DNA of 23,669 nt from a virus: positions 1 through 23,669 of the IMG/VR virus record IMGVR_UViG_3300021961_000638; one strand, given 5' to 3'. The notes under the pieces are model-generated. The model saw only the letters and a list, made by a program, of their open reading frames with translations, ran no database searches and was not told where the DNA came from. The translations under genes and the position numbers were made by a program. Below are positions 1 to 22,933 of the stretch, piece after piece; within the stretch, counting starts at the first letter, position 1; each line of letters opens with the position of its first letter.

Positions 1-795
1 TGCTGCAAGTGAAGAAACCGGAGGCTGCCCAGTTACTCCAGGACTGTTGACATTTCCTTGCAAACTCTGTACAGTAGTCGATGGCGGCGGAAGAGGTATA
101 TTAGCAGAGGCTTGTAGCGCTGCCTCTGGGTCTGCTGGCTCTGTCTCAGAACTGGTTGTTTCACTCTTTGGTGTTTCTTTATCAGAAGAGAAATAGTTGT
201 ACAGCCCACCTGCAGCGGCCGCAGCTCCTACAGCACCAAGTACACCGATACCCAGTAGTTTGAAATTCTTAAAAAAAGCACCCATCTTTGCGTTGCTTTT
301 ACCAACGGTGCCAGTCAATCCTTTTACGCGATCTAATAAACCACCAATCAACCCTTTAGATTTACCGTCTTGGCCGTCTGATGGTGCGGTAGCAGCTGCT
401 GTTGGTTTAAGAGCTTGAGAGGCCTCCGCAGCATTCTCTTCTTGCTGTGCCATCTCAATAGAGCGTCTAAGCTCGGCTTGTCTCTCAGCTTCTTTCATAG
501 AAGTGAGCTGCGCACCCATAATACCAGCAAGGTTGTATATGTTGTCTGATATGTTTGTGACGAGAGTTTCAATTCGACTCAGTGACGAGTTGACTTCTGA
601 TTGAATGCTTGACTGTTTTTCAGTTTCGTTTTTAACAGGATCTTCACCTTCGCCAGGCTTAAATACCTTTTCCCACTTGTTACCCAGAGCCGTGCCAAGC
701 AAACTACCTCCAAAAAATCCGGAGACAGCTTGACCGCCGCCCTCGGCTATGCGAGTTTGTGCTGCCTGTTTGAATTTAGAAAAGAAGCCTGCCAT
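1..795 (-). CDS. Putative tape-measure-like / tail protein, N-terminal 265 residues (runs off left edge)
   Basis: The reading frame opens at an ATG at 795 and stays open to position 1, so the 3' end lies outside the window. The visible 265 residues begin MAGFFSKFK and have a Gly-rich stretch at 18-38. Residues about 58-125 are Glu/Gln/Ala-rich and probably helical or coiled coil. Residues about 173-202 form a hydrophobic Gly/Ala helix (FFKNFKLLGIGVLGAVG) that could be membrane-active. A Ser/Thr/Pro-rich linker follows from 203. It starts 3 nt after the stop of the gp51-like segment, so the two are probably cotranslated. The order chaperone, frameshifted chaperone, tape measure is standard in long-tailed phages (lambda G/GT/H), which supports a tape-measure role. 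T4's own tape measure is gp29, and no homology to it can be claimed by eye. It could instead be another hub-associated protein with a C-terminal enzyme domain off-window. Confidence 0.6.
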   Translation of the reverse strand, partial: MAGFFSKFKQAAQTRIAEGGGQAVSGFFGGSLLGTALGNKWEKVFKPGEGEDPVKNETEKQSSIQSEVNSSLSRIETLVTNISDNIYNLAGIMGAQLTSMKEAERQAELRRSIEMAQQEENAAEASQALKPTAAATAPSDGQDGKSKGLIGGLLDRVKGLTGTVGKSNAKMGAFFKNFKLLGIGVLGAVGAAAAAGGLYNYFSSDKETPKSETTSSETEPADPEAALQASANIPLPPPSTTVQSLQGNVNSPGVTGQPPVSSLAA

Positions 796-798
796 GTG

Positions 799-921
799 TT
801 AGTGTGACAACTGTTGTTGCTGTTCCTGTAAGTATTCTTTGAGCATGTCAGCGAAGAGGTCACGTTCATATGGATAAAGATTCTCAAGCTCAGTTATAGA
901 GTATTTATGATGCTGAACCAT
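799..921 (-). CDS. gp51-like short ORF, probably the -1 frameshift extension of gp26
   Basis: From an ATG at 921 this frame encodes 40 residues, starting MVQHHKYSITELENLYPYER and ending LQEQQQQLSH. The QHHKYSITELE...YERDL pattern resembles the C-terminal part of tail-assembly chaperone extensions and gp51-like proteins in marine T4-like phages (from memory, not searched). The frame is open without interruption upstream to 981, and the intervening codons read YVGLSHNTLANYYALIFS, which looks like genuine protein. There is no other ATG in that segment and no clear ribosome binding site before 921. The likelier expression route is therefore a -1 shift at the heptamer 975-981 from the gp26 frame, giving a 291-residue fusion. 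Independent initiation at 921 remains possible. The stop (799-801) is 3 nt before the next gene's ATG. Confidence 0.7.
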   Translation of the reverse strand: MVQHHKYSITELENLYPYERDLFADMLKEYLQEQQQQLSH

Positions 922-962
922 ACTGAATATCAACGCGTAGTAGTTAGCTAGCGTGTTATGGC

Positions 963-1673
963 TCAGCCCAACGTAAAAAAATCAGTCAATGTCGATAATG
1001 TGATATCTACCTTTTTACCGTTTGAATTGGTGTAAGATACTACGTAATGCAATTTTGGCATACGGTCAACGAAACGCTGAATTTGTTCATACGATGATAC
1101 ATCGAGACTGTCGAGAAACTCTTGCACTTCTGCCGTTGTATAATCAGCCACCTTGTGTACATCGTCACCAACGTAAATCTTATCGATGCAGCTTGCAACG
1201 ACAGCAAAAGCAAACTCAACAGGATCTGTAATACCCTCAACGTCTCGCATAATACTTAGTTTAGGATACCTCAACACGATGCCTGAGTCTGTACCTGTCG
1301 CTATAGTTTTTTCTGTTTCAACATCGCCTGTGATTTCAATGCCATCGAGATCTACTTCGACATCGTAGATGTTTCCATCTTCTATATCTTTGTATGATAG
1401 CTTGACAATGCTGTTAACTGACTTGGCTCTTAGCTTAATAAAGAAGTACTCGAGATCAAAGGTTGTAAAGTTTTCAACATCAATGTTTTGATCAACAATA
1501 CAGTTACTAACGACTTGTTTGATAGCTTTCACAACATCTGCTGGATCGCCACTGCTTTGAGCAATAAGAAGAATCTTTTCTTCTCTTACAACAAACGGAC
1601 GAAACCTAATCTCTTGCTTTGTTGAAGGTAGGATAAGAGAGAAGGTTGGATGAGAGATTTGCGGAAGACCCAT
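963..1673 (-). CDS. 26: Baseplate hub / tail-assembly protein, T4 gp26-like
   Basis: A 236-residue protein starting MGLPQISHPTFSLILPST. The segment around 22-60 (RPFVVREEKILLIA, then a helix with VSNCI) is the signature of the T4 gp26-type baseplate family (Pfam T4_baseplate, from memory), and length is close to T4 gp26 (208). In T4, gp26 belongs to the baseplate hub assembly pathway. The start is supported by GGAG about 9 nt upstream of the ATG. The gp54-like gene ends 18 nt before it. The ORF ends abruptly as DFFTLG, four codons after a run of seven U on the coding strand, and the -1 frame continues as the gp51-like segment. The 0-frame product is therefore probably the short form and a frameshift makes the long form, as in lambda gpG/gpGT. 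Confidence 0.82.
   Translation of the reverse strand: MGLPQISHPTFSLILPSTKQEIRFRPFVVREEKILLIAQSSGDPADVVKAIKQVVSNCIVDQNIDVENFTTFDLEYFFIKLRAKSVNSIVKLSYKDIEDGNIYDVEVDLDGIEITGDVETEKTIATGTDSGIVLRYPKLSIMRDVEGITDPVEFAFAVVASCIDKIYVGDDVHKVADYTTAEVQEFLDSLDVSSYEQIQRFVDRMPKLHYVVSYTNSNGKKVDITLSTLTDFFTLG
975..981 (-). promoter_or_regulatory. Slippery heptamer U-UUU-UUU, predicted -1 frameshift site at the end of the gp26 gene
   Basis: In the gp26 frame the codons are GAT TTT TTT ACG TTG GGC TGA, so the seven T residues sit exactly in the X-XXY-YYZ register for tandem -1 slippage. In the -1 frame a TGA lies at 984-982, immediately before the heptamer, and the frame is then open for 60 codons to the TAA at 801-799. 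The 0 frame stops at 965-963, so only 17 nt are open in both frames and the heptamer lies inside them. The shifted product would be 233 residues of gp26 plus 58 new residues (YVGLSHNTLANYY onward). A clear downstream pseudoknot was not identified by eye; only a short GGC-TGA-GCC hairpin was seen. Confidence 0.7.
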
Positions 1674-3109: not shown

Positions 3110-3550
3110 TTAAAATTTTATTCCTAACTCGTGTTCAGTAAGTACGACAAATTTCCACTTACGATCCTTACAGAATTCTTGAGCTGCTTTCCATTTTGCT
3201 TCGTTTACGCCCCACGTATAAACTTCTCTAATATATCTCTTAGTAGGCTTTTGTTGCACTACTGGTGGTTTAGTTTCCTTAAAAGGTTTGATCTCAACCA
3301 TCAAAGTCTCTAATACCCCATCTCGACCTTTTTTACGAACAACAAAATCAGGAAAGTACCTATGCACTCGATTATCCACGGGGGATACGTACGGTACAAC
3401 GATTTCCTCACTGGCCCAAGAAAGGACGTCAGGGTGGGCGTCTAAATACCCCATAAACTTTAACTCCCACCTGCTGCGGTATACAATGTTTGTAGGGTCC
3501 CCCCTATATTTAGAAGGGTGCTTGGGTTTGAAGTGGCCTTTATAACTCAT
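3110..3550 (-). CDS. 4: Head completion protein, T4 gp4-like (PD-(D/E)xK nuclease-type fold)
   Basis: From the ATG at 3550 this is 146 residues, matching T4 gp4 (about 150). gp4 acts late in head maturation, closing the packaged capsid for tail joining. Visible hallmarks are an N-terminal SYKGHFKPKHPSKYRGDP, then YRSRWELKFM with E29, a VLSWASEEIVVPY strand pair, HRYFPDFVV with D68, and MVEIKP with E86 and K88. The E...D...ExK arrangement is that of restriction-endonuclease-like folds. A longer frame from a TTG at 3583 adds 11 residues but overlaps the gp48 start, so the ATG is preferred. It is the first minus-strand gene and faces gp48 across 11 nt. No good ribosome binding site lies before the ATG. 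Confidence 0.85.
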   Translation of the reverse strand: MSYKGHFKPKHPSKYRGDPTNIVYRSRWELKFMGYLDAHPDVLSWASEEIVVPYVSPVDNRVHRYFPDFVVRKKGRDGVLETLMVEIKPFKETKPPVVQQKPTKRYIREVYTWGVNEAKWKAAQEFCKDRKWKFVVLTEHELGIKF

Positions 3551-3561
3551 AGGAAATATAT
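3551..3561. promoter_or_regulatory. 11-nt divergent gap between gp4 and gp48 with the gp48 ribosome binding site
   Basis: The gap reads AGGAAATATAT. AGGA at 3551-3554 is a Shine-Dalgarno match 7 nt before the gp48 ATG (3562) and supports that start. The rest is an alternating AT tract. Because the two start codons are only 11 nt apart, the promoters for the leftward and rightward operons cannot fit in the gap and must lie inside the opposing coding sequences. No convincing T4-type late promoter (TATAAATA) was found on either side by eye. Confidence 0.6.
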
Positions 3562-4536
3562 ATGCCCGATTTACGTAGTACAACTGCTACAGTTATCGAC
3601 AAAGTAAACAACCTCCAGATTACACAAGATGTAAAAGCTGGTATTGGTAAACTTACGGACGCTCTCAGTGACACGTTCGGTTATTCAACTGGTTTGCAGG
3701 TAAAGAGCGCTTTTCCAAACGTAGACGTACCACAGGCGCCAAAACGATTAGGTGGTCAGACGCCAGAACAAGCTCGAACAGATGCTACAAAATTCAGGGG
3801 TGCACTCGTGTTCCCTACAGAACAGAAGTACTTTACTATGTTTAAGTTTTCTGCATACAAGCGTCCTGGTATTCTGAACGAAGCAAAACGACTACCTGTT
3901 GTTAACATCGTTCTACCCATGCCTAACAACCTTGCGGAGAACTTTGCTGTCAATTACGAAACACCAGCGCTTGGTCCAATTGTTGGCTCTGTCGCTGATG
4001 AAATACGTAGCGCTACCGGTAACGGTGAGCAGACAGGTGATGAGAAGACTTTGAAGGGCATGGGTGCTCAGCTTGCCATGCTGGGTATCAAGAAAGCCAT
4101 TTCAGGTAAAAGTGAAGCGCTGAACGCTGCTTTGAATAGAGAAACAGGTACTGCTCCTAACCCTCACCTGGCTACTATTTTCAGAGACATGGCTCTACGG
4201 ACGCATTCGTTCAGCTACACACTAGCACCAGCAAGTGAAGCAGAGCTACGTACTGTGAAAGAGATTGTAAAGAACCTCAAATACTCATTGTTACCTGGCT
4301 TAACGGAAGGTGGGGATTTACTGTTTACGTTTCCCGATACGTGCGAAATAACTTTTGGTCCTAATGCTGATTCACCGTATATTATAAAGCGTAGTGTGTT
4401 AACGAGCTTAAATGTCAACTACACTACAGGTGGATCACCAGCCTTTTTCAAAACAGGCGATCCTGTGACGATTACAATCGATATGACGTTCCAAGAAGTA
4501 GATGCCTTTACTCGCAAAGACTTAAAGATTGTCTGA
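3562..4536 (+). CDS. 48: Baseplate tail-tube cap, T4 gp48-like
   Basis: A 324-residue protein (T4 gp48 is 364). gp48 sits on the central hub dome with gp54 and supports tail-tube polymerisation. Features seen: a region at about 70-110 reading KFRGALVFPTEQKYFTMFKF then AYKRPG, an Ala/Gly-rich segment with GMGAQLAMLGIKKAISG (about 174-190), then NPHLATIFRDMALRTHSFSY and LAPASEAELRTVKEIVKNLK. That last pattern (NPH...F, R.HSF.Y.L.P...EL..I...K) is the gp48/tube-superfamily signature in marine T4-like phages. The C-terminus has tube-like beta strands (FPDTCEITF, VTITIDMTFQEVDAF). It is the first plus-strand gene, has a strong AGGA site, and its TGA is followed by the gp53 start 13 nt later. Confidence 0.8.
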   Translation: MPDLRSTTATVIDKVNNLQITQDVKAGIGKLTDALSDTFGYSTGLQVKSAFPNVDVPQAPKRLGGQTPEQARTDATKFRGALVFPTEQKYFTMFKFSAYKRPGILNEAKRLPVVNIVLPMPNNLAENFAVNYETPALGPIVGSVADEIRSATGNGEQTGDEKTLKGMGAQLAMLGIKKAISGKSEALNAALNRETGTAPNPHLATIFRDMALRTHSFSYTLAPASEAELRTVKEIVKNLKYSLLPGLTEGGDLLFTFPDTCEITFGPNADSPYIIKRSVLTSLNVNYTTGGSPAFFKTGDPVTITIDMTFQEVDAFTRKDLKIV

Positions 4537-21208: not shown

Positions 21209-22933
21209 ATGGCTAAAGCAATTGCTAACGTCGTAATCGCAACAGATTCATTTGCGGGATGGGTTGGTATCACCAACCAGATGGCGCACACATTCACAAC
21301 ACAGGCTTTGACTGCTAACCTGTCTTCGACGGGTGCAACTGTTACTGGTAACTCCGATTTGGTAGGTATCTTCAGTGCTAATGTGGTAGCAGCAAAAGAC
21401 GGTTTACGTGGTGGCACAATCGACACTCCTGCAACGTTGATTATTACTTCTAATACAAACGTTACTGGGGCACAATCAAACCTTACAAGCAACGTCTACA
21501 TTAATAACAGCAACACCACGATCAACGCTCCTAATACTGTAATTAGTGGTGGTCGTCTTGATGTTACATCGAATACATTCCTGACAACAACTGGTGTCAC
21601 CGTCACAGCAACGACAACTACAGTCGCTGGTGGTAGTGCGGCTGTGACATCAAACGCATATCTCAATAGTGCTAACGTCTTTGCGAATACAGCAAAGCTA
21701 ACAGTTCAGGGTGGTACGGTCAACATTAACTCTACTGTTTCTGTTACGAATACAGTTAGCGTTCAATCTAATACAACTGTTAATGGTAACATCCACAACA
21801 TCGGTGGTAATGTAAACTTTGATACAGGTACGTTGTTCATTGATGCTGTTAATAACCGTGTCGGTTTGATGAATACAGCACCCGATGCTGTCGTCACAGT
21901 TACTGGTACTGCAAACGTGTCTGGAGCTGTGCAGCTTGGTTTAACCCTAGGTGTAACAGGTGCAACAACACTCAGTAACACACTAGGTGTAACGGGTGCT
22001 GCAAACTTGGCAAGTACGCTTGGTGTCGTGGGCGCTGCAGCACTATCAAATACATTGAGTGTAGCAGGCGCAGCCAACCTAGCCTTGACGTTGGGTGTAA
22101 CAGGTGCAACAACACTTTCGAATACATTAGCAGTTGCGGGTGCTGCAAACCTGGCCAGCACGATTGGGGTAGTTGGTGCAGCCACGCTGTCTAATACGCT
22201 AGCTGTTGCGGGTGCTGCCAACTTGGCTACCACGTTAGGTGTTGCTGGAACAACAACACTTGCGGGATTGGATGTTTCTGCTAATGCTAACTTTGATAGT
22301 GGTGTGCTATTTGTTGACACTGTTAATAACAGAGTCGGTATCAATAATACATCACCAAACGCAGCTTTGACCATCACGGGTACTGCAAACGTTTCTGGTG
22401 CTGTCATTCTGGGTAGCACTCTGAGTGCAGGTAATACATCGATTAGCCGATTGACAGCTAGTAGTGTCGCCAACCTGAACAGTACTGTAAATATCGGTGG
22501 TGTAACGACAATATCCAATACATTAAGCGTTTCACAAGGGGCCACATTCTCTAACACTGTTGACCTGAGCGGTAGTGCTACGACGTTCCAGAATAATTAC
22601 GTCGTAGTTGTAACCTCTAATTCAAACATTGGTGCAAACACAACGAACCCTGTAGAAGTAGCTACGTTTAGCGCAACGACTTATACAGCAGCAAAGGTAA
22701 CAGCACGAGTAAAGAAAGATGCTGCATCTAACGTTTCTATCCAAGAACTTCTTATCACACACGACGGCGCTGATACAACGCTGACAGTATACGGTACAGT
22801 CGCAACACCTCCTACTTCCAACCTCGGCGTGTTTAGTGCGAGCCTAAATACTGGTAACAATACTGTATCAATTAACTTCTTGCAGACCACCGCCAATTCT
22901 AATGTAGTGGTAGCTGCTCATCTGTTAAAGTAA
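21209..22933 (+). CDS. Repeat-rich tail fibre-like protein (574 aa)
   Basis: The N-terminus (MAKAIANVVIATDSFAGWVG, then ITNQMAHTFTT) looks like a virion attachment domain. It is followed by Asn/Thr/Val-rich strands consistent with a triple beta-helix shaft. Residues about 203-244 and 361-402 are two copies of a 42-residue unit (core DxVNNRVGxxNTxP, then TANVSGAV). Between them lie nine 12-residue repeats of the type LGVTGATTLSNT / LAVAGAANLAST. The last about 110 residues become globular (AAKVTARVKKDAASNVSIQE, LLITHDGADTTLTVYGTV), probably a trimerising or terminal domain. No Cys-rich, enzymatic or chaperone motif is visible. GGAAA precedes the ATG. The next gene starts 8 nt after the stop and shares the NNRVGI unit, so the two are probably paralogous fibre components. 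Receptor binding is plausible but unproved. Confidence 0.78.
   Translation: MAKAIANVVIATDSFAGWVGITNQMAHTFTTQALTANLSSTGATVTGNSDLVGIFSANVVAAKDGLRGGTIDTPATLIITSNTNVTGAQSNLTSNVYINNSNTTINAPNTVISGGRLDVTSNTFLTTTGVTVTATTTTVAGGSAAVTSNAYLNSANVFANTAKLTVQGGTVNINSTVSVTNTVSVQSNTTVNGNIHNIGGNVNFDTGTLFIDAVNNRVGLMNTAPDAVVTVTGTANVSGAVQLGLTLGVTGATTLSNTLGVTGAANLASTLGVVGAAALSNTLSVAGAANLALTLGVTGATTLSNTLAVAGAANLASTIGVVGAATLSNTLAVAGAANLATTLGVAGTTTLAGLDVSANANFDSGVLFVDTVNNRVGINNTSPNAALTITGTANVSGAVILGSTLSAGNTSISRLTASSVANLNSTVNIGGVTTISNTLSVSQGATFSNTVDLSGSATTFQNNYVVVVTSNSNIGANTTNPVEVATFSATTYTAAKVTARVKKDAASNVSIQELLITHDGADTTLTVYGTVATPPTSNLGVFSASLNTGNNTVSINFLQTTANSNVVVAAHLLK
21815..21940 (+). repeat. 126-nt direct repeat, left copy, flanking the 36-nt repeat array
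   Basis: Encodes 42 residues beginning NFDTGTLFIDAVNNRVGL and ending TANVSGAVQLG. It aligns without gaps with 22289-22414, with about three quarters of residues identical by eye. Confidence 0.8.
21947..22270 (+). repeat. Nine in-frame 36-nt tandem repeats in the fibre gene
   Basis: Nine 12-codon units without indels. They alternate between types ending LSNT and LAST/LATT, so the higher-order unit is 72 nt. Typical units are LGVTGATTLSNT, LAVAGAANLAST and LGVAGTTTLAGL (last). All keep the xGVxGAxxLxxT frame. Third-position differences show that the copies have aged while the protein pattern was kept. Confidence 0.9.
22289..22414 (+). repeat. 126-nt direct repeat, right copy, flanking the 36-nt repeat array
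   Basis: Encodes 42 residues beginning NFDSGVLFVDTVNNRVGI and ending TANVSGAVILG. It lies 474 nt (158 codons exactly) from the left copy, so recombination between them would keep the reading frame. Confidence 0.8.

Follow-up and report, generated by a model that had tools for sequence, protein, structure and literature searches.

Tail assembly chaperones produced as a short and a long protein in unequal amounts have their model in the G/GT system of phage lambda, where the gene just before the tape-measure position encodes a short protein in the zero frame and a fusion reached by shifting to −1 (PMC5009743). In the Vandenendeviridae and Andersonviridae (phage Adele), the relevant passages of a recent paper describe how TAC-N undergoes a conserved −1 frameshift, the T-rich slip site lying close to the end of the gene and the extension behind it being annotated as a separate gene (PMC12846349). 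Among T4-like phages, tail assembly chaperones have been identified by Vladimirov, Gautam, and Davidson (2022; Virology 566:9-15), whose work is known here from passages of two papers that cite it (PMC10885494, PMC12846349). In those passages, the PRFect paper ascribes separate short and fusion genes to some T4-like phages (PMC10885494), and the Adele paper ascribes poly-T slippery sequences to the TAC-N genes of T4-like phages (PMC12846349).

A published listing for T4 places both gp26 and gp51 among the hub assembly chaperones. Assembly depends on gp51, yet the protein is not part of the virion, and it has been described as essential and of unknown function (PMC3004832). Sullivan et al. (2010) further reported that cyanophage gp51 is only ~20% as long as other gp51 proteins, and that gp51 is missing in Aeh1 only (PMC3037559).

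The window analyzed here, a stretch of 23,669 bases constituting the entire IMG/VR record IMGVR_UViG_3300021961_000638, contains T4-like tail genes, among them a gene 26 that very likely yields a tail assembly chaperone in two lengths, short and long; near the end of the gene, the ribosome very probably slips back by one base on a run of seven T. The locus resembles lambda G/GT in its short zero-frame protein, its predicted −1 fusion, and its placement just before the tape-measure position. It differs in its slip sequence, in the lack of a detectable sequence relation, and in belonging to a family (PF12322) represented by two genes in T4 relatives. It shares with phage Adele a conserved −1 frame, a T-rich site, and a detached annotation of the extension; Adele, however, belongs to other phage families and uses a GTTTTT motif, and the passages on it describe no stem of the kind found here. 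As far as the citing passages go, the T4-like chaperones of Vladimirov et al. are by all indications of the same gene family, and the window's lineage, its clade-specific stem, and the GAGGG element of its relatives may lie outside the coverage of that study. We do not claim as new that T4 gp51 amounts to gp26 plus an extension, since the PRFect citation indicates that a pair of short and fusion genes had already been reported. Subject to Vladimirov et al., what seems new is the lineage, the near-universal conservation, the clade-limited stem, the GAGGG element, and an explanation for the oddities noted in 2010.

Anatomy of the locus and identity of its products

Gene 26 lies at 963..1673 on the minus strand, encodes a zero-frame short product of 236 aa, and ends ACT GAT TTT TTT ACG TTG GGC TGA. 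An earlier note on this DNA had claimed a T_TTT_TTT heptamer in −1 slip register near this end, and the heptamer is exact to the base at 981..975 (975..981, minus strand). Directly on its 5′ side, a TGA at 984..982 (982..984, minus strand) closes the −1 frame, which from the slip site onward consists of sense codons down to 804..802 and stops at the TAA at 801..799. The zero and −1 frames are jointly open for only 17 nt, 981..965, a stretch that contains the heptamer and leads into the zero-frame TGA at 965..963 (963..965, minus strand), itself located within the 5′ arm of a predicted stem. The −1 extension (799..981, minus strand) reads FFYVGLSHNT...QQLSH and represents a gp51-type C-terminal domain; recomputed, the fused product is 291 aa. 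The flanking stop, the reach of the open frame to 799, the 17-nt overlap, and the length of the shifted product had all been put forward in the earlier note, and each was reproduced.

Both parts of the fusion have recognizable families. The zero-frame product matches PF12322 (T4_baseplate) at 6.4e-53, with 180 bits against a cut-off of 24.5, and PHROG 150 at 3.6e-55, while the extension alone, taken as the residues from 969 on, matches PHROG 634 (baseplate hub assembly catalyst, gp51) at 5.6e-20. By tblastn, relatives of gp26 were found in 666 phage records (limit 0.01) and relatives of the extension in 533 (limit 1), cyanophages in the main. Existing annotation either enters the extension as a separate, late-starting gene or omits it, and examples of both in phage records bear out the suspicion that the gp51-like product is split or missed as a matter of standard practice. 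Modelled with AlphaFold (pLDDT 83), the window's gp26 matches many models of viral gp26 proteins. Its top match in the PDB is the HK97 tail assembly chaperone 2ob9, which at E 0.5 and a probability of 0.30 is weak and serves as a mere hint; no relative turned up when solved structures were searched by sequence.

The next ATG, at 795, lies 3 nt past the stop of the extension. It opens a gene in the tape-measure position (1..795, minus strand) that runs off the record, so that only its first 265 aa fall inside the window. A tape-measure-like gene had been expected here. The start stands, and by position the gene is a candidate for a tape-measure gene; tape-measure profiles gave no match beyond chance to those 265 aa. 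The gene is 38% identical to its counterpart in the relative L214, and the counterpart in SynMITS9220M01 shows weak tape-measure matches, the best at 1.9e-6.

Two other features of the window may be recorded in passing. An ORF of 574 aa at 21209-22933 on the plus strand contains a run of near-repeats of the TLGVVGAAALSNTLSVAGAANLA kind and is probably a repetitive tail fibre or structural protein, and a head-closure (gp4-like) protein at 3110-3583 on the minus strand matches the TnsA-like endonuclease domain PF08722 at 7.1e-22.

Conservation of the slip site and the alternative of a separate start

Relatives came from reference phages and from protein-query searches of viral contigs that started from gp26 or the extension, and neither the frame nor the heptamer was used as a criterion in their selection. 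An alignment of diverse gp26 sequences proved too divergent for use in scanning, and KVP40 gp26 as query recovered close kin only. Comparison of extension and heptamer across these relatives, a check that the earlier note had proposed, places the extension in the −1 frame at 358 of the 359 loci that hold both parts. A T_TTT_TTN heptamer stands in register at 289 of 290 distinct junctions, in the forms TTTTTTC (170), TTTTTTT (116), TTTTTTG (2), and TTTTTTA (1); at the lone exception, L349, gp26 is broken in two pieces. Codon choice is equally constrained. In every one of the first 183 junctions, TTT encodes the first of the two Phe residues and the codon ahead of the pair ends in T, even as the meaning of that codon varies among Ser, Asp, Asn, Ala, and Gly. 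The resulting NNT_TTT is thus seen in 183/183, against ~84/183 expected given the amino acids and the codon usage of the same genes.

The T4 proteins provide a second line of evidence. T4 gp26 and gp51 are both members of PF12322, and a profile of the fused product aligns with gp51 as a single block that spans the slip site (residues 15-244), and with gp26 over residues 4-207, ending at the slip-site FF. In T4, then, the short form and the long form each have a gene of their own: gp26 as the short form, and gp51 as a gp26-like part followed in frame by the extension, as in the fused long form. T4 differs in that these are paralogous genes, divergently placed on opposite strands, for which a frameshift is not needed. 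RB43 likewise has a full-length gp51.

These alignments also account for the observations of 2010, since the part that appears to be lacking from short cyanophage gp51 and from Aeh1 is gp26, predicted to be joined through the frameshift. In Aeh1, gp26 ends GAT TTT TTC GAC TGA, and the gap up to the next gene is taken up by a −1 extension that carries no annotation. Aeromonas phage Aeh1, P19, and AsFcp_4 all have an unannotated gp51 that is a −1 extension behind T_TTT_TTC.

The alternative that survives best, though we consider it improbable, would have the extension translated as a small protein in its own right, through stop-restart or from a start codon belonging to it, the T run being incidental. 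An in-frame ATG does occur near the gp26 stop in 112 of the 190 relatives that fall outside the window's clade (the clade being defined by a zero-frame stop 16 bases past the start of the heptamer); TAATG or TGATG is found in KVP40, in rhizobial phages, and in some Vibrio phages, and gp51 is annotated as its own gene in cyanophages. Within the window's clade, however, such an ATG is present in just 1 of 99 members, on which count a separate start codon was rejected there; the first ATG of the window's extension lies inside a conserved block, after NYYALIFS. ACP17, P19, and Aeh1, which fall outside the clade, are also without such an ATG. A separate start would furthermore leave unaccounted for the near-invariant heptamer, the fixed choice of codons, the stem, and a T4 gp51 that corresponds to the full fusion. 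Taken together, the conservation of heptamer and frame, the rarity of the ATG, and the alignment with T4 gp51 and gp26 argue that gene 26 very likely makes two forms of the chaperone.

The earlier note had named relatives with two separate products and no heptamer as the case that would tell against a frameshift, and such relatives occur, solely among the distant Vibrio phages 1.255.O, D503, and K475. In these, the heptamer has given way to CTT TTC or CTT TTT, and the gp51-type ORF has its start in a TAATG that overlaps the stop of gp26. Stop-restart thus seems to have replaced the frameshift, making restart a real alternative in that lineage; this shows replacement there, not absence of the frameshift from the window's clade. 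KVP40 and two rhizobial phages combine the heptamer with an overlapping TAATG or TGATG, so that fused and free extension may both arise.

Putative stimulatory elements and their distribution

The dnaX gene of E. coli slips on A_AAA_AAG with two stimulators acting together: a Shine-Dalgarno-like element that precedes the slip site by about 10 nt, and a stem that follows it. The same two kinds of stimulator appear in T4-like relatives, though for the most part in different clades. In the window's clade, the downstream element is a stem of 9 bp (GCUGAGYCA with UGGYUCAGC) with a 38-nt loop and a 7-nt spacer from the heptamer, inside the 5-9 nt range expected for −1 frameshift stimulators. In the window, the predicted 5′ arm GCTGAGCCA at 967..959 pairs with the 3′ arm TGGTTCAGC at 920..912 (959..967 and 912..920, minus strand), and the 82-nt fold has a z of −2.90.

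Pairing and covariation support this stem across 72 non-redundant clade members. Stem cells are paired in 94.9% of cases, against 17-36% in slid versions; in 11 cells both partners have changed, where shuffles give 2.7; and the covariation score lies above 500 of 500 shuffles. Because the arms encode conserved residues, codon-level nulls were also applied. Random synonymous codons, given the amino acids, form 6.04 (sd 0.17) of 9 pairs, and synonymous codons permuted within columns form 8.44 (sd 0.017). The observed mean of 8.54 is reached by 0 of 1000 permutations, a margin over 8.44 that is small in absolute terms and whose apparent significance is inflated by the kinship of the sequences. 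The stem is part of the minimum-energy fold in 60 of the 72. RNAalifold returned no structure for all 72 together, probably because a few sequences break the stem, and recovered it with 5 to 40 sequences and again with 24. A scan for the combined pattern of heptamer and stem led to gp26 with its extension at 80 of 80 examined loci, some of which also possess a Shine-Dalgarno-like element. A comparison of the window with Rfam gave no match.

Of 190 junctions that do not belong to the window's clade, 174 have a Shine-Dalgarno-like stretch ahead of the heptamer, typically GAGGG at −14 to −10, compared with 1 of 99 within the clade; sought about 10 nt upstream, the element is absent from the window and from 98 of the 99 clade members. 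Among the first 183 junctions it is present at 164, against 12% at other positions of gp26. The Glu codon inside the element is GAG in 111 cases and GAA in 41, the reverse of the usage elsewhere in the same genes (GAA 3063, GAG 1359), which indicates that the element is more than a by-product of the protein sequence.

On a tree, the stem is confined in the main to one clade of 75 rows, of which 57 have the stem alone, 7 have both elements, 3 have the Shine-Dalgarno-like element only, and 8 have neither, these last counting against our main reading. A repeated trade-off between stem and Shine-Dalgarno-like element was tested on this tree and is not supported, and independent pairs show no association. 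Four further loci, L074, L102, L103, and L118, have neither the Shine-Dalgarno-like element nor a stem of the window's type and display instead another short hairpin directly after the heptamer (such as CCCTCT...AGAGGG), possibly a third kind of stimulator.

The same elements bear on transcriptional slippage, in which RNA polymerase would add or drop a base in the T run and the altered mRNAs would give the fusion. Homopolymer runs can trigger polymerase slippage, and the window and its clade do have a run of seven T. The run is T6 followed by C, short for such a process, at 170 of 289 junctions, however, and the register suited to a slip of tRNAs is kept throughout. A Shine-Dalgarno-like element spaced as in dnaX and a stem 7 nt downstream are, moreover, stimulators of the ribosome, and polymerase slippage is in our estimation highly improbable. 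Homopolymer runs are also prone to sequencing errors, but the notion that an indel or a chance open frame has brought together two functionally unjoined parts has a negligible likelihood and is ruled out by conservation, the same arrangement recurring in sequenced isolates and across independent assemblies numbering in the hundreds, with an extension that constitutes a conserved family (PHROG 634, 533 records).

Proposed decoding and its implications

The central proposal of the earlier note, that a programmed −1 frameshift joins gp26 to a gp51-like extension, draws strong support from conservation, from T4 gp51, and from the stem. We hold it highly probable that gene 26 is decoded in two ways, a stem-promoted slip giving a pair of short and long chaperones. 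The proposal builds on the anatomy of the sequence, its conservation, the homology of its products, and the covariation of the stem, from which we infer slippage in infected cells at a rate that would leave the majority of ribosomes to halt at the TGA at 965..963 and release the 236-aa short protein. Some ribosomes would slip by −1 on U_UUU_UUU, with both Phe tRNAs re-pairing with UUU, and continue to a 291-aa protein whose final ~58 residues form the gp51-type domain. The stem formed by 967..959 and 920..912, 7 nt downstream, would promote this slip. Together the two products would make up a pair of tail assembly chaperones, one short and one long, active in tail or hub assembly and probably working with the product of the next gene.

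For the family as a whole, we favor as likely a homologous slip site in T4-like phages that is served by lineage-specific stimulators. Most lineages would employ the upstream GAGGG with T_TTT_TTC and the window's clade the stem with T_TTT_TTT, some members having both; elsewhere the frameshift would have been replaced, by paralogues in T4 and by stop-restart in Vibrio phages. The T4 comparison points to a role for gp51, namely, that of the long form of the chaperone, and what hundreds of marine phage records enter as gp51 is probably a fragment of a fusion. If this account is true, the family represents a natural series in which a programmed frameshift has been rewired and lost, and its clade-specific stimulators would provide a clean comparative system for the study of frameshift signals.
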